This document shows, one piece after another, positions 12,637 to 23,063 of a stretch of DNA of 23,063 bases. A model generated the notes under the pieces. The model saw only the letters and a list, made by a program, of their open reading frames with translations, made no database searches and was not told where the DNA came from. The position numbers and the translations under genes are program-made. Every line of letters begins with the position of its first letter. Position 1 is the first letter of the stretch. This DNA is from a virus, in the IMG/VR virus record IMGVR_UViG_3300015374_000063, positions 1-23,063 of that record, one strand, 5' to 3'.

Positions 12637-12903
12637 ATGACCGGCGAAGGAGAGGGCCAGCTGATCCGTGTAGTCGGCGAGCTTCGGAGCTCGATCGACA
12701 AGCTCCGTGACGAGCTCGTTCGCAAAGACGTCTACGACGCTCAGCGGCAGGCCGACCAGAAGGACGTCGCCGAGGTCACCAAGGACGTCGCCGAGATCAA
12801 GGAGTCAATGCGGTGGCGCGACCGAGTGCTGGTCGCGTCGCTGCTGCTGCCCCTGATCACCAGTTTCATACTCCTCTACGTCTCCCAGCAGGTGAGCCGA
12901 TGA
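12637..12903 (+). CDS. Coiled-coil protein with C-terminal TM segment (holin-like candidate)
   Basis: An 88-residue protein with an N-terminal amphipathic coiled coil (LIRVVGELRSSIDKLRDEL, then QKDVAEVTKDVAEIKESM, about residues 8-58) and one transmembrane segment near residues 63-83 (VLVASLLLPLITSFILLYV). The architecture resembles XhlA-type membrane proteins, which assist holins in some Gram-positive phages. It directly precedes a membrane-anchored collagen-like protein and the endolysin, so a lysis role is likely but unproven. ATG 12637 follows the upstream stop by 2 nt, and its own stop overlaps the next ATG (12900). A tail-associated role cannot be excluded. Confidence 0.72.
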   Translation: MTGEGEGQLIRVVGELRSSIDKLRDELVRKDVYDAQRQADQKDVAEVTKDVAEIKESMRWRDRVLVASLLLPLITSFILLYVSQQVSR

Positions 12904-13454
12904 TCAACGTCAAGCCACTCCGTCTCCGCCACGTCGCCCTCGTCGTCATTCTCGCGATCGCGGCCGTGTGCTTCTACGCCATCTTCACCGTCGTCAACGG
13001 GCTCTCCGACCGACTCGACAAGGCCGAGGAGCACGCGAGTTCAAGCTCAGCCACCGCCGCTGACGCTGTCAGCCGAGCCAAGGTCCTCGAGGCCCAGGTA
13101 AAGCAGCTCGGCGGCACGCCGGCTGTGAGCGTCCCGACCCCGCGACCCAGTGTGGTCCCGAGCAGCCCGTACGTGCCAGTGCCCGGCCCGGCCGGACGCG
13201 ACGGCCGAGATGGTCGCTCCATCCAAGGCCCTCCCGGCGACTCCGTCCAGGGCCCTCCCGGCGACACCGTGACCGGACCAGCGGGCCCGGCTGGACCCGC
13301 AGGCAAGGACGGGACTGACGGCAAGGACGGCTCAGATGGCCGCAGCGTCGCCTCAATGAGCTGCCAGGACGACGGTACGTGGCTGATCACCTACACCGAC
13401 GACACGACCCAGACCGCTGACGGTCCCTGTCGCGTGCCGCTGCCAACCGGCTGA
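12900..13454 (+). CDS. Membrane-anchored collagen-like protein
   Basis: A 184-residue protein with a transmembrane segment at about 11-33, a Ser/Ala-rich probable coiled coil at about 34-70, a Pro-rich linker, a collagen-like Gly-X-Y region at about 96-149, and a terminal domain with Cys155 and Cys177. The collagen-like part contains GPAGRDGRDGRS, two QGPPGD repeats and a GPAGPAGPAGKDGTDGKDG run, with short interruptions (SIQ, SVQ, TVT). Collagen-like repeats are common in actinophage structural proteins; the C-terminal pattern of a Cys, a WLITYTDDTT strand and a second Cys recurs with them. Start ATG 12900 overlaps the previous stop. An N-terminal TM anchor makes a virion fibre less likely. 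A spanin-like lysis role or surface display is speculation. Confidence 0.8.
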   Translation: MINVKPLRLRHVALVVILAIAAVCFYAIFTVVNGLSDRLDKAEEHASSSSATAADAVSRAKVLEAQVKQLGGTPAVSVPTPRPSVVPSSPYVPVPGPAGRDGRDGRSIQGPPGDSVQGPPGDTVTGPAGPAGPAGKDGTDGKDGSDGRSVASMSCQDDGTWLITYTDDTTQTADGPCRVPLPTG

Positions 13455-13491: not shown

Positions 13492-13516
13492 GTTTCGCCA
13501 ACCCCAGGAGACTCCC

Positions 13517-14989
13517 ATGGCCATCAAGCGCGCACCACACGCAGACAACGCCGAAGCTCGCGCCAAGGCCAAGGTCGGCACGACCAATCGGGTCGGCATG
13601 TGCGCTCACGAGGTGATCGTCAACATCCTCGGCATCCCGGCGCCGTGGAAGTGGGGCGGCAACGGTAGGGCGTGGGCGTACAACTACTTCCTCGGCGCCC
13701 AGAAGGTCGTGAAGACGAACGACCCGATGAAGGTGCCCGCGGGCGCGGTCGTGATCCACAGGCCTCGCCCCGGCGCCACGACGACTGGCGGCAAGGCCGG
13801 CCACATCGCGATCAGCGCTGGCGGCGGCTACGAATATTCAACAGACCTCCCGCACGAAGGGCGCTGGGGCAAGGTCAAGATCAGCTACGTCGAGGACGTC
13901 TGGGGCAAGGAGCTCGCCGGGTACGTGCTCGTCGACGGTATGGGCTACGACGTGTCACCGCCCGCTCGAGCGACCTCTGTCGCCGTGTGGGGAAAACCCG
14001 AGACGTTCGTGCTCGGAGCGACAGGCTCCGCCGTGACGAGGCTTGGCGAGCGGATCGTCGTGTGGTCCAAGGCGTTGGGCCTCCCCAACCCGTACCGAAC
14101 TGGCCCGTCCTCGCCGCTGACCGCCACCGACGTCGCCGCCCTGGCGAAGATCCAGAGGGCATGGGGCGACCACGACGCGGACGGCTATCCTGGCCCGCTG
14201 ACGTTCGCCCGCCTCGCGCTCGATCCCTCAGAGCCGAAGACGTCGACCGTGAACGTTCTGTTCCTTCCGACCGGCGGATACAACGCCGACGACGCGAAGG
14301 GCGTCACCCGCTGGAAGTCCAACACTGACGGTTTGGCGGCCCTCGTGAACAGGCTCGCCCCCGACCTCGTCGGGACGACCGAGATGTCGAACCGCAAGGT
14401 CAACCCCATGCTGCCGAGGTTCACCGCTGCACTGCCGCGCTACGCGCGCGAGCCGGGCGGCTCCGATGGCCGGTACTGGTTCCGGAAGAACGCCACGACC
14501 GACCACGTAGCCTCTGGGCACGTGGTCGCCTCGGAGCTCTCCGAGCTCAACGATGACGACAAGCAAGGCGCCTGGACTGTCGTCCGCATGGCTGACGGGC
14601 TCCGCGTCCAAGCGATCGTCGCTCACACCGAGAACGAGGACGGCATCGACAGGAGCGGGCCCAACAAGGGCGCCGACGCCGACGACCTGCGCGTCACACA
14701 GTCGGTGTCAATCCTGTCCCGCTCAATCACAGCCGGGGCCGAGCACAAGCCCGATGTCGTGATCTACGTCGGCGACTTCAACTCAGAGAAGCGCGTCAAG
14801 GACGAGATGATCCGCCGCGGCTGGAAGGTGCTCGGCCCGGGCGTCTTCACTCGATGGGACGACACGGCGCACAAGGAGTTCGACTGGGGCTTCATCAAGG
14901 TCGGCAGCGCCACCGTCGACGTCATCAACCACTCGTTCGGCGACCACACGGCCCTGCTCATCCGCTGGACCATCACCAAGGAGGCATGA
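13517..14989 (+). CDS. Endolysin: Cys/His peptidase + peptidoglycan-binding + DNase I-like (EEP) domain
   Basis: A 490-residue three-part lysin. Residues 1-145 look like a CHAP/NlpC-P60-like amidase or peptidase: Cys29 in VGMCAHEV, His96 in GKAGHIAIS, and a glycine-rich WKWGGNGRAW block. Residues about 155-237 resemble the actinophage peptidoglycan-binding module, with LAKIQRAW and DADGYPGPLTF. Residues about 243-486 show the order of endonuclease/exonuclease/phosphatase motifs: Asn256 in LPTGGYN, Glu289 in LVGTTEMS, His370 in VQAIVAHTEN, Asp420 and Asn422 in VIYVGDFNSE, Asp456 in KEFDWGFI, and Asp476/His477 in FGDHTALLIRW. ATG 13517 has AGGAGA at 13506-13511. It precedes the holin-like gene. 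The lysin call is firm. The EEP call rests on motif order and spacing; its substrate (DNA, lipid or polymer) is unknown. Confidence 0.85.
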   Translation: MAIKRAPHADNAEARAKAKVGTTNRVGMCAHEVIVNILGIPAPWKWGGNGRAWAYNYFLGAQKVVKTNDPMKVPAGAVVIHRPRPGATTTGGKAGHIAISAGGGYEYSTDLPHEGRWGKVKISYVEDVWGKELAGYVLVDGMGYDVSPPARATSVAVWGKPETFVLGATGSAVTRLGERIVVWSKALGLPNPYRTGPSSPLTATDVAALAKIQRAWGDHDADGYPGPLTFARLALDPSEPKTSTVNVLFLPTGGYNADDAKGVTRWKSNTDGLAALVNRLAPDLVGTTEMSNRKVNPMLPRFTAALPRYAREPGGSDGRYWFRKNATTDHVASGHVVASELSELNDDDKQGAWTVVRMADGLRVQAIVAHTENEDGIDRSGPNKGADADDLRVTQSVSILSRSITAGAEHKPDVVIYVGDFNSEKRVKDEMIRRGWKVLGPGVFTRWDDTAHKEFDWGFIKVGSATVDVINHSFGDHTALLIRWTITKEA

Positions 14990-14991
14990 CC

Positions 14992-15270
14992 ATGTCCACC
15001 CCCCGCACCCCTTCGCCCGTCCAGATCACTCAGGCGCGCCACCCTCGACGCGCGACGCTGCGATCGAGCGTCCAGTTCATGATCGGCCTCGCGGCGATCT
15101 GGGGCAGCGTGGTCGAGCTCGCAGGACTCGATCCCACACTGCCCGTCATCGCGCCCTCGATCGCCGCCGCGGCGGCCGTCACTCGCGTCATGGCCTCTCC
15201 TGTCGTCGAGGCGTTCCTGCGCCGGCACAAGCTCACGTCGTGGCTCGCAGCCGCGCCACCCAGCAACTGA
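14992..15270 (+). CDS. Holin-like two-TM membrane protein
   Basis: A 92-residue protein with a hydrophilic, basic N-terminus (ITQARHPRRATLRSS), two hydrophobic segments at about 26-45 (VQFMIGLAAIWGSVVELAGL) and 49-68 (TLPVIAPSIAAAAAVTRVM), and a charged tail (EAFLRRHKL). This topology fits a two-TM holin, forming the membrane lesion that releases the endolysin. It lies directly after the endolysin, the usual position. ATG 14992 was chosen because AAGGAGG at 14978-14984 is 7 nt upstream; an in-frame ATG at 14986 overlaps the endolysin stop but is only 1 nt from that site. Function is inferred from topology and position. Confidence 0.78.
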   Translation: MSTPRTPSPVQITQARHPRRATLRSSVQFMIGLAAIWGSVVELAGLDPTLPVIAPSIAAAAAVTRVMASPVVEAFLRRHKLTSWLAAAPPSN

Positions 15271-15375: not shown

Positions 15376-15671
15376 CCGTCACACTCGGCGCAACGCCGAT
15401 CGACGCCGAGCTCGTGCTCTCGCCCGATACTGGCTTCGTGTGCACATTCCGCCGCCCCTCCGGCGCCTGGCCGGACGGGATGACGGCTGAGATCCGCATC
15501 GGCGCCCAAGTGTGGCAGGCGACTGTCGTCGCGGACGAAGCGAACTGGGACATCGACAGCGCGACCGTCGATGCCCTGATCGCCACAAATCCGCGCCGCG
15601 CCCAGGTCTACGTCACGATCGACGGCGTCCCGGCGCTGTGGTTCAGCGGGCCGGTGAAGATCCGTGGCTAG
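15372..15671 (+). CDS. Small beta-sandwich protein (LtfC/Gp6-like)
   Basis: A 99-residue protein that looks like the small beta-sandwich family often found just before tail-fibre genes in actinophages (LtfC/p132/Gp6-like). Visible signs are TPIDAELVLSPDTGFVCTFR, the aromatic GAWPDGMTAEIRI, and the ending YVTIDGVPALWFSGPVKI. Start ATG 15372 has GAAGGAG at 15359-15365, 6 nt upstream, a strong site. Its final codons overlap the start of the fibre gene (15664). It may form part of the tail-tip or fibre attachment. The family call is from memory of the pattern; function is unproven. Confidence 0.7.
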   Translation: MTVTLGATPIDAELVLSPDTGFVCTFRRPSGAWPDGMTAEIRIGAQVWQATVVADEANWDIDSATVDALIATNPRRAQVYVTIDGVPALWFSGPVKIRG

Positions 15672-17301
15672 CGTGAGCATGGCGGACGGCGAGGAGATCG
15701 TCGTCGAAACGCCCACGCGGCCCGTCTTGCTACTGGAACGCAGCGAGGTCGTCGTGACGAGCGTCAACGGCGACAGCGGCGACGTTGAGATCGACGTCGA
15801 CCAGGCGTCCGACGAAGCAGTCGCCGCGCACGTCGACGACGATGCCAGTCTCACGACGGCTGCCGTTGCTGCCAGGATCGCCTACGCAACGGCAGCCAAC
15901 CCGCACCTCCTCAAGACGGGCATCCAGGCCATCGGCGAGCTGGGCAATAGCGTCGCTCTCAACGGCGTGCTCTCCTACTACGACTACGCAACATCGGGTG
16001 CGATCACCCTCGGCAGCCTGTCGTACATGGCCACTGCCATCCCGAAGACGAACGGTCGATTCCGCTACGCCGGCGTCGTCGGACACGTTGGCTACACCTC
16101 GACTCAGCTGCTGCCCTACCTCCCTGACCTGATCGCGGCCGGCGTCGCTGGCGGCTGGACCCACGTCGGCCTCCAGGTCATCACGAACGACCCGTTGAAC
16201 CTGCCCTTCGCGACCACCAAGGCGAACATCATCACAATGGTCGACGCGATCTTGGCCGCGGGTATGACGCCAATCCTCTACACCGCACCGCCGCTCGGGT
16301 CGGCGGTCGGCGGAAACACGGGCGCGCCACTGACGAAGCTCACCCAGGCGAACCTCTTCGCGCGCCGGTTGGCGGCAAAGCTCGGCCTGCCACTGGTCGA
16401 CTTCCACAGCGTCACAGTGAACCCGTCCGACAACAACTGGCTGCCGGGATACTCGGCGGATGGGGTGCACCCAACTGCGCTCGGCGCCAAGGCCATGGGC
16501 GACGAGCTCGCGCGCGTCTTGAACACGATCCCCGGACGCACCCCGTCACAGCTCGCCGGTTCCTACAACCCAAACCTCATGCTGCCCGACGCCGTGATCA
16601 CCTCGGCCGCCGCGGACAAGTTCACGTACTCCGGAAACACGGGCGGCGGCTGGGGGCTCAAGGCCTCAACGGGGCCGTTCTGGAAGGGCAACCAACTCAT
16701 CATCAACCGCGGCAGTCTCGGCGACTACGGCGGCATCGGGCCGATCGCACCGGGCCTCTGGGTGCCGGGCAACCGTGTCCGGGTGTCATTTGGCATCGAC
16801 GTGTCCGCATGCCCGACGGGCGGCACATGGTCGGCCAACCTCTACAACTTCACCCAGGCGCAGGCGGTCTGCGGATTCTCCGGCATGTCGAACACTCTGA
16901 CAAACCGATCGGTATCCGTCACCGACTGTGTGACCACGACGGACGCCAACGCGCGGATCATCAACTCGGCATCCGGGGCGTGGCGTCCTACGCACGTCGG
17001 TTGCGCCGTCCAGATCAACTCCGGTGTCACGACCGTGCTTCCTGCTGGGACGACCATCATCAACGTCTCCATGGATGGAAAGCAGGCCTACATGTCCGCC
17101 CCTGCCACTGTGGCCGCGTCCGGACTGTGTGCCACCGTCTCCGGCGAGCCCTGCGTCGCTGTGTTCGAGTTCACGGTCCAGCCGGATATGGTCGGCGACA
17201 CGATCAACGTGCAGGCGACTGCCAGCGGCGCTGCCGGGACCGTCGTCGGGCTAACCCAGCCCACCGTCCAAGACATCACCGCTCTCGGCATCGCCGCCTA
17301 G
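15664..17301 (+). CDS. Tail fibre / spike with SGNH (GDSL-type) hydrolase domain
   Basis: A 545-residue protein. Residues 31-45 (VTSVNGDSGDVEID) resemble the trimerisation collar common in phage fibres. Residues about 86-287 fit an SGNH hydrolase: block I LGNSVALNG with Ser96 (Asp of the usual GDS replaced by Asn), block II VVGHVG with Gly140, block III VITNDPLN with Asn175, and block V DGVHPTALGAKAM with Asp266/His269. All four name-giving residues appear present. The C-terminal half is beta-rich with six or more cysteines and may be a receptor-binding domain. Such domains deacetylate or de-esterify surface polysaccharides in other phages. GTG 15664 overlaps the previous stop; ATG 15679 is an alternative. 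The 3' end overlaps the next gene's ribosome site. Confidence 0.78.
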   Translation: MASVSMADGEEIVVETPTRPVLLLERSEVVVTSVNGDSGDVEIDVDQASDEAVAAHVDDDASLTTAAVAARIAYATAANPHLLKTGIQAIGELGNSVALNGVLSYYDYATSGAITLGSLSYMATAIPKTNGRFRYAGVVGHVGYTSTQLLPYLPDLIAAGVAGGWTHVGLQVITNDPLNLPFATTKANIITMVDAILAAGMTPILYTAPPLGSAVGGNTGAPLTKLTQANLFARRLAAKLGLPLVDFHSVTVNPSDNNWLPGYSADGVHPTALGAKAMGDELARVLNTIPGRTPSQLAGSYNPNLMLPDAVITSAAADKFTYSGNTGGGWGLKASTGPFWKGNQLIINRGSLGDYGGIGPIAPGLWVPGNRVRVSFGIDVSACPTGGTWSANLYNFTQAQAVCGFSGMSNTLTNRSVSVTDCVTTTDANARIINSASGAWRPTHVGCAVQINSGVTTVLPAGTTIINVSMDGKQAYMSAPATVAASGLCATVSGEPCVAVFEFTVQPDMVGDTINVQATASGAAGTVVGLTQPTVQDITALGIAA

Positions 17302-21254: not shown

Positions 21255-21621
21255 TCCTGACATCTTGCGCGCACTGTGGTCGGCGGGCGCGCTGGTCCCG
21301 TACCGCATCACCAAGGCTCTCGACGCGAATGGGCTCTACGGGCCCGAGGTCGACCGGCTGTGCGAGGCGGAGGAGCCCGAGGTTGACGAGTGGGAGGCCG
21401 GCACCCGATACCCGCGGCTTGTCCAGGTCCGCGCGCTCGCTGATCTGTGCGACGTCCACCCGCTGTGGTTCTTCCGCACAACCACCCAGGACGATGGCCG
21501 GCTGACGTCACCGATGTTCCTGTGCGGGCCGAAGGGCTGCGACGTCGTGATCGAGGACGGCGTCGAACACGTCCTCGAGTACCCGCTAGATGTCGTTCGG
21601 GCCACGGTCGGGACGGCATGA
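21247..21621 (+). CDS. HTH-like DNA-binding protein
   Basis: A 124-residue protein with a region resembling a Cro/XRE-type helix-turn-helix: PYRITKALDANGLYGPEVDR and VDEWEAGTRYPRLVQVRALA, followed by ADLCDVHPLWFF, in which the WEAG-x-x-x-P pattern and hydrophobic final helix are typical. A C-terminal part with LCGPKGCDVVIEDGVEHVL may hold a small beta domain with two cysteines. The start GTG 21247 has GAGGAGA at 21234-21240, 6 nt upstream. It overlaps the methyltransferase by 8 nt and precedes the integrase, so it could regulate the operon or lysogeny; this is inference. An enzymatic function is not suggested. Confidence 0.7.
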   Translation: MDDPDILRALWSAGALVPYRITKALDANGLYGPEVDRLCEAEEPEVDEWEAGTRYPRLVQVRALADLCDVHPLWFFRTTTQDDGRLTSPMFLCGPKGCDVVIEDGVEHVLEYPLDVVRATVGTA

Positions 21622-22412
21622 TGGACGGCATGGACGAGCTCAGCGAGGCGCACCTGCAGTACCTCGTGGATGAGCGGAAGCCGGCGAACACGATCAAGGG
21701 CCGGCGGCGTGTGCTGATGCTGATCGGAACCGCCGGCACGGCGAAGCGTGAGGAGATCGAGGAGTGGTGGCGATCTCGGGCCGACCTGGCCGAGTCGACG
21801 CGGGCCAATGACCTCTCGCACCTGCGGTCGTTCTACAGATGGGCGATGCGGTGGGAGCACCGCTGGGACGACCCCACGGTGCGGATCGACGCGCCGAACG
21901 TGCCGAACGGCCTGCCGCGCCCGATCAGTCGTGTGGATCTACAGACGTTGCTCGACGGCCTCGACCCTGACATGCGCCGGGCGGCGTGCCTGGGCGCGTA
22001 CACCGGGATGCGCGTCTCGGAGGCCGCGTCGATCGACTGGGCCGACGTCGACCACGAGCTCATGAGGATCAGGGTCAAGGGCAAGGGCAACAAGTCCAGA
22101 CTCGTGGCGTTCTCACCGGTGCTGCTCGACGAGCTGCTGCCGATCACGGGCGGCAACGTCGTCGCCGCCGGCGGCAAGCCGTACAGCGCCTCGCAGCTCG
22201 AGCGGAAGGTGAACCGGGCGATCGAACGCCTGGGCGTCGCCGCGACATTCCATCAGCTGCGCCACAGGTACGGGACGCTCGCGTATCAGGCCACGGGCGA
22301 CCTGATCGCGGTCGGCCGGCAGATGGGGCACTCGTCGCCGGTCACGACCGCGATCTACGCGGCCGCCTCAGACGCGGTCGCGGACAAGATCGCCCAGGCT
22401 GTCGTCCGCTAG
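21618..22412 (+). CDS. int: Tyrosine recombinase / integrase (short, no arm-binding domain)
   Basis: A 264-residue tyrosine recombinase. Residues 1-95 form a SAM-like core-binding domain (EAHLQYLVDERKPANTIKG, NDLSHLRSFYRWAMRW). The catalytic domain holds Arg132 (TGMRVSEAAS), Lys154-159 (VKGKGNKSRL), His212-x-x-Arg215 (HQLRHRY), His238 (MGHSS) and Tyr247 (IYAA), a complete set. It lacks the N-terminal arm-binding domain of lambda-type integrases and is close to XerC/D size. ATG 21618 overlaps the HTH stop; ATGs at 21621 and 21630 are in-frame alternatives. It is the last gene of the rightward chain and converges with a second recombinase. Function as the phage integrase is likely, but which of the two acts in lysogeny is unknown. 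Confidence 0.88.
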   Translation: MMDGMDELSEAHLQYLVDERKPANTIKGRRRVLMLIGTAGTAKREEIEEWWRSRADLAESTRANDLSHLRSFYRWAMRWEHRWDDPTVRIDAPNVPNGLPRPISRVDLQTLLDGLDPDMRRAACLGAYTGMRVSEAASIDWADVDHELMRIRVKGKGNKSRLVAFSPVLLDELLPITGGNVVAAGGKPYSASQLERKVNRAIERLGVAATFHQLRHRYGTLAYQATGDLIAVGRQMGHSSPVTTAIYAAASDAVADKIAQAVVR

Positions 22413-23063
22413 GCCGCTACAGACAGGGCCGGCGCGGGATCGTCAGCCGGCGGCGGCTTGGTGATGTCGGGCAGGAGCATGATCGCCGCGCGTCGCTGGC
22501 GGTCGTCGATCTGGATGTATCGCTCGGTCGTGGAGATCGAGCCGTGACGCATGAGCTCCTGCACGACACGGGTGTTGACTCCGCGGGCGACCATTTCGGT
22601 GGCGTGCCATCGTCGGAGGCTGTGAGCGGTGCCAGGGGCGCCGGCGCGACGCATGGCGTCGGCAATGACGCGGGACACTGAGGCGCCCAGGACGTGCCCG
22701 CCTGCGGCGCTGTCGCGGTTGGTGGTCCACTGCGGGAACCACCAACCCTTGTCGTCGTAGCGGGCAGCCTCGGCCTTGACGATCGGGTGCAGCGGCAGCA
22801 CGAGGAACGTCCCACCCTTGCCGTGCACCACGATCTCGTTCGAGCGGTGGTCGATGTCGGCGCCGCGGACCTTGGCGATCTCGAAGGCGCGGAGACCCTG
22901 ATAAGCCGACAGCAGGATCATCGTGCGGGTCCTTGCGTGCATGCGTGACGCCACCAGGTGCTCGAGGTGGGCCGTCGAGAGGAACCGCTGCGACCTGCGA
23001 CCGGCCTTGGGCTTCCGAACGCCGTCCATCGGGTTGTCCTCGCGCAGCTGCTCGTCGACGAGC
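22409..23063 (-). CDS. Second tyrosine recombinase (XerD-like), partial
   Basis: A minus-strand tyrosine recombinase whose 5' end is cut by the window edge: the frame is open to the last base, and the sequence before ATG 23029 reads LVDEQLREDNPMDGVRKPKA, a normal linker between core-binding and catalytic domains. The catalytic residues visible are Arg in YQGLRAFEI, Lys in VHGKGGTF, His-x-x-Arg in AHSLRRWHATEM, His in LMRHGSIS and Tyr in TTERYIQI, so the active site is complete. The missing N-terminus should hold a core-binding domain. Its stop shares the CTAG at 22409-22412 with the opposing recombinase. Its role could be integration, excision or dimer resolution. It seems intact as far as visible. 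Confidence 0.86.
   Translation of the reverse strand, partial: LVDEQLREDNPMDGVRKPKAGRRSQRFLSTAHLEHLVASRMHARTRTMILLSAYQGLRAFEIAKVRGADIDHRSNEIVVHGKGGTFLVLPLHPIVKAEAARYDDKGWWFPQWTTNRDSAAGGHVLGASVSRVIADAMRRAGAPGTAHSLRRWHATEMVARGVNTRVVQELMRHGSISTTERYIQIDDRQRRAAIMLLPDITKPPPADDPAPALSVAA

Follow-up and report, generated by a model that had tools for sequence, protein, structure and literature searches.

Endolysins normally consist of wall-cutting domains and a wall-binding domain. The gene at 13517..14989 (+) of the viral DNA studied here raises the question of what a third domain, of the endonuclease/exonuclease/phosphatase (EEP, DNase I) superfamily, would do at the C-terminus of such a chain. The DNA, referred to below as the window, is a 23-kb IMG/VR record (23,063 nucleotides, 67% G+C).

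The lysin gene and its genome setting

The gene is an uninterrupted open reading frame encoding 490 residues (52.8 kDa). A Shine-Dalgarno sequence, AGGAG, lies at 13506-13510, upstream of the ATG at 13517, and the gene's TGA stop shares bases with the start codon of the one that follows (ATGA). C29 is the only cysteine, and the protein has no transmembrane segments. Based on the translation, the Shine-Dalgarno sequence and the codon composition, we annotate the gene as an endolysin of three domains. A preliminary description had proposed a modular endolysin, and the peptidase, the peptidoglycan-binding module and the third domain are indeed present on one chain; the residues it singled out (C29, H96, N256, E289, H370, GDFN 419-422, D456 and GDH 475-477) are all at the positions given. 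Judged from the sequence, a single gene encodes all three domains, and it belongs to the part of a siphophage genome that runs from tail to lysis functions.

Within the window, the terminase, portal, capsid, tape-measure and tail genes follow the normal siphophage order, the terminase being assigned from gene order in relatives. By their capsid, the relatives are actinobacterial phages and prophages, with 18 loci in viral records and 40 in genomes; the closest of the latter, at 73%, is in an Actinomycetota MAG. A tape-measure scan likewise recovered related phages. One of the 18 viral loci is a near-identical contig (L006) that ends within the capsid gene, and the lysin is seen on a single contig. 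The region encoding the third domain has a G+C content by codon position of 0.61/0.46/0.90, like the capsid, portal and tail genes, and the reading frame of the lysin is the sole open frame there.

The gene that begins on the lysin stop codon (14986..15270, +) encodes a holin-like protein of 94 residues with hydrophobic stretches; a Pfam scan of this protein returned no family match, so a holin is what we infer it to be. Upstream, the small protein at 12637..12903 (+) has a C-terminal transmembrane helix and is weakly XhlA-like (phrog_38457, unknown function), and is a possible lysis accessory. The product of 12900-13454 is anchored in the membrane and combines collagen-like GPP/GPAG repeats with a YTDDTTQ motif in its C-terminal part; a similar protein with a YTDGTTQD repeat occurs in an Umezawaea prophage (L197). 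An LtfC-like gene and then a GDSL/SGNH lipase gene, at 15664-17301 (PF13472, E=4e-11; phrog_6102, lipase), follow downstream of the lysin; the product of the latter gene is possibly an esterase acting on the host envelope. Two tyrosine-recombinase genes, at 21447-22412 (+) and 22409-23029 (-), converge tail to tail at the contig end.

Residues 1-148 (13517..13960, +) form a predicted NlpC/P60-CHAP-like Cys/His peptidase, which shares 26-31% identity with actinobacterial NlpC/P60-CHAP-like wall hydrolases. The proposed catalytic pair, C29 (13601-13603, +) and H96 (13802-13804, +), is invariant among relatives of the domain, as are S108, D110 and W129, in agreement with the peptidase-like part initially described. 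The relatives comprise L024/P0005, of which P0005 is weakly NLPC_P60/CHAP by Pfam, together with L074, L075 and L080, and they include plasmid proteins annotated as peptidase M23 or C40. L074 combines the peptidase and the binding module in the order of the window lysin, without the EEP part. By this homology, the chain has the predicted wall-cleaving catalytic domain of an endolysin.

The predicted wall-binding module of the endolysin occupies residues 163-240 (14003..14236, +) and contains the DADGYPGP motif noted earlier. NF038080 (PG_bind_siph) aligns to residues 163-234 with E=7.8e-9 and 35.7 bits, below its curated cut-off of 55, the phrog_17214 endolysin family matches with E=7e-6, and Streptomyces phage endolysins share 40-43% identity with the module. 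Both family matches bear out its identification as peptidoglycan-binding. The same module is also found in Rpf-like, NlpC and amidase proteins.

The C-terminal EEP domain

The third domain spans residues 243-486 (14243..14974, +) and was assigned using Pfam, subfamily profiles and hhalign. PF03372 matched residues 246-423 with E=5.8e-4 for the domain alone and 20.1 bits, below the gathering score of 24.5. The first search with the window domain, across 395 actinobacterial genomes, gave weak matches only, some of which were genuine EEP proteins that are of an exported type and bear fibronectin-III-like repeats. We grew a subfamily profile from one exported actinobacterial EEP protein, with the window protein excluded. 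This secreted-EEP profile scored 55.5 bits against the window domain (E=1.1e-14, Z=24736), compared to a best score of 8.3 bits in 500 shuffled sequences, and hhalign of the domain with this profile gave 97.8% probability over 208 columns and a score of 65.1, the best of 60 shuffles reaching 16.9. Since the seed of this profile had been picked from weak matches to the window domain, the test was repeated with a second profile, comprising only members that were not first found with the window protein, which gave 20.1 bits (shuffles at most 5.1) and 95% in hhalign. An ExoIII-dominated EEP profile reached 14 bits, indicating that the choice of EEP subfamily matters. The EEP alignment A2 was too diverse to serve as a scan query.

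Searches of PDB sequences with single sequences gave chance matches only. Structure prediction from single sequences yielded pLDDT values of 34 for the whole lysin and 37 for the EEP part, too low for the fold to be read, and Foldseek found no match for the latter low-confidence model. The closest long alignment of the domain to any relative has about 26% identity, and no close match was found among bacterial proteins. The profile scores relative to the shuffled controls, with the motifs in order, sustain the EEP assignment of the preliminary description, and we conclude from these comparisons that the third domain is a genuine member of the EEP superfamily, within a subfamily of secreted actinobacterial proteins.

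The motifs vary in how securely they can be placed. Asn256 (14282..14284, +), EEP motif 1, aligns with the Asn of TWN/TYN in the secreted EEP proteins. Glu289 (14381..14383, +), in the predicted metal ligand motif, aligns with the Glu of LQE and is invariant in alignment A2, as are His370 (14624..14626, +), also placed by hhalign, and GDFN 419-422 (14771..14782, +), which the first profile aligns both in the profile search and in hhalign. Asp456 (14882..14884, +) aligns with the Asp of VDHI in hhalign with the first profile, which also aligns GDH 475-477 (14939..14947, +), the probable equivalent of SDH; the second profile aligns the final third of the domain differently, placing both off register. 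Thus, from the full set of EEP motifs originally listed, N256, E289, H370 and GDFN are firm and in register, while D456 and GDH, aligned with one profile of two, are probable. Like other EEP domains, this one has a hydrophobic stretch after GDH, close to the end of the chain. The spacing from GDFN to the final DH is shorter than in relatives, and Asn256 is preceded in the first strand by PTGG, which is unusual. The Cys pair (CSEKC) of some exported EEP relatives is absent from the lysin, which fits folding in the cytoplasm.

The best solved matches of the subfamily profile were 3g6s (a putative EEP protein), 4c1r (a mannosyl-6-phosphatase) and 3mpr. Nocturnin and TDP2 are also among the nearest solved relatives, and weak matches were obtained to beta-hemolysin (3k55) and to 9sf8, an EEP entry of unassigned substrate. 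DNase I itself was not among the structure matches of this profile. Given the diversity of these relatives, phosphomonoesterase, nucleotide phosphatase, nuclease and phospholipase-C-like roles are all compatible with the domain, which is probably an active phosphoesterase.

Occurrence of the domain combination

The fusion had been described as rare, and no second case was found in the phage and viral collections searched. Searches of 50,697 phage records, with the EEP part and with the whole lysin as queries, revealed no relative of the EEP part, and a search of plasmids with it was equally negative. Queries of the lysin, its parts and subfamily patterns against the 2.9 million viral contigs of IMG/VR recovered only the window itself; as such scans depend on exact matches to short patterns, they could overlook distant relatives. 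A GDFN...DHN DNA pattern hit only chance stretches in viral contigs. PF03372 had no match in 12 related virus records, nor did an EEP profile over approximately 50 related phage and prophage loci, many of them partial. Lysins visible in the related loci, typed by reading the sequence, are of amidase, CHAP or M15 type, some carrying the binding module of the window lysin. Two unannotated Listeria phage records showed a weak EEP match. Two fecal 'Bacteriophage sp.' records (L199 and L200) were considered as EEP-lysins and rejected, being export-type EEP proteins without lysin parts; they may represent bacterial DNA in the phage collection. The literature searched yielded no naturally occurring endolysin that carries an EEP or DNase domain, which is weak evidence of novelty. 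The domain combination is new, and its component parts are known.

The nearest precedent is a protein from plasmid p001 of Aeromicrobium yanjiei (WP_153651188.1; L240, 10039-11994), which has an N-terminal membrane segment followed by EEP, SLT_3 and NlpC/P60 domains, the latter two being sub-threshold Pfam matches, and which is annotated merely as an EEP family protein. Its gene adjoins genes annotated as TraM recognition and SCO6880 family, and p001 is typed as MOBP mobilizable. The protein matches 342 plasmid records, with coverage of at least 80% in p001 itself only.

Proposed function and comparison with known systems

We favor, with a little better than even confidence, an endolysin with an added C-terminal EEP phosphoesterase that would act on a second, phosphate-containing target. 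The lysin, having no signal peptide, would accumulate in the cytoplasm until the holin lets it out. The released protein would bind the wall, where the peptidase would cut stem or cross-bridge peptides, and the wall-held, metal-dependent EEP domain would cleave a phosphate-containing target met only outside the cytoplasm. The exported appearance of the closest EEP relatives was counted in favor of this reading. The likeliest target would be an envelope phosphoester, either a wall glycopolymer or a phospholipid, followed by DNA spilling out of the cell. If the domain is an active phosphoesterase, we place an envelope phosphoester just short of an even chance and DNA or RNA somewhat lower, as a substantial possibility, and regard a small phosphorylated molecule as an improbable substrate.

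The strongest alternative, raised in the preliminary description and in our view possible yet distinctly less than evenly likely, is that the EEP domain is a nuclease degrading host and released DNA at lysis, which would reduce viscosity and release virions, or strip away eDNA. Engineered lysin-DNase chimeras are described in a review as useful against biofilm (PMC12833820). DNase I and ExoIII are themselves EEP enzymes, the window domain retains the GDFN, His370 and GDH motifs, and the subfamily profile also matches TDP2 and, weakly, 9sf8. However, the nearest solved relatives of the subfamily are not DNases, and the window domain appears to have Gly at what we take to be the position of DNase I Glu78 (DGRY vs KERY). 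Furthermore, phage DNA awaiting packaging would be at risk from a free DNase synthesized in the cytoplasm ahead of lysis, and the closest fusion, in p001, sits in a DNA-transfer region, where a free DNase seems harmful. The hazard to phage DNA and the oddity of a DNase in such a region tilt the choice slightly towards an envelope phosphoester, with DNA close behind.

Alternatively, the EEP part may be catalytically dead, serving as a binding or spacing domain for wall or nucleic acid. The low similarity to every relative (at most about 26% identity over a long alignment), the shortened region between GDFN and the last DH, and the unusual PTGG before Asn256 would all suit such a domain, but N256, E289, H370, GDFN and the near-terminal DH are kept in order, an unlikely outcome after loss of function, and we consider this explanation unlikely. 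We give still less weight to the protein being a hydrolase carried on the tail or virion and used during entry, rather than a lysin: the gene lies among tail-type genes with the LtfC-like and GDSL lipase genes downstream, yet the modules are typical of lysins, a small membrane protein starts on the stop codon, and no second lysin was seen among the window genes scanned. A false assembly, in which a phage lysin was fused to an EEP gene of bacterial origin and which the single contig and the absence of a homologous fusion from all collections searched might suggest, is very improbable, given the continuous frame, the matching codon composition on both sides, the close ATGA overlap linking the lysin to the phage gene that follows, and the distance of the EEP part from every bacterial protein found.

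Returning to the endolysin with an added phosphoesterase, the phosphoesterase would give lysis a second chemical target. We see roughly equal chances for and against a natural two-target endolysin, directed at peptidoglycan and at a phosphate-containing component such as an envelope polymer, a membrane lipid or spilled DNA. If true, the enzyme would represent a catalytic class that the literature searched does not describe for endolysins. It would then also parallel, as an independent case, the union of EEP and wall hydrolase encoded in the transfer region of an actinobacterial plasmid.

Comparison of the window lysin with known proteins indicates where its parts have been seen before. The endolysins of the Streptomyces phages Marav (gp29), Puginator and Zainub share the PG_bind_siph module at 40-43% identity, whereas the Marav enzyme begins with an amidase-like part, carries one more binding repeat and has no EEP domain. 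The closest EEP sequences are those of the exported actinobacterial proteins with fibronectin-III-like repeats (L103, L158, L100 and L107); unlike the window lysin, these have no wall-hydrolase part and retain a full-length C-terminal region with SDH. The EEP phosphatases 3g6s, 4c1r and 3mpr are free-standing enzymes that resemble the window domain only via the profile, and DNase I and the neutral sphingomyelinase beta-hemolysin (3k55) share its superfamily only distantly. In lysocins, the DNase domain of a bacteriocin is replaced by a lysin (PMC7168136), and the window lysin would be a natural counterpart to the lysin-DNase chimeras engineered against biofilms (PMC12833820).

The p001 protein resembles the window lysin in joining the same EEP subfamily and an NlpC-like peptidase family on one chain. 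It differs in the reverse order of its domains, with EEP first, in being membrane-anchored or exported and encoded in a plasmid transfer region, and in having a lysozyme-like domain and no peptidoglycan-binding module. EEP has thus been united with this peptidase family on two separate occasions, each time in an element that has to get through an actinobacterial wall. This would speak for a role at the envelope, and the pairing suggests that the EEP domain helps at the wall. With the pairing found again on a plasmid of actinobacteria, a common function at the envelope can be tested directly.
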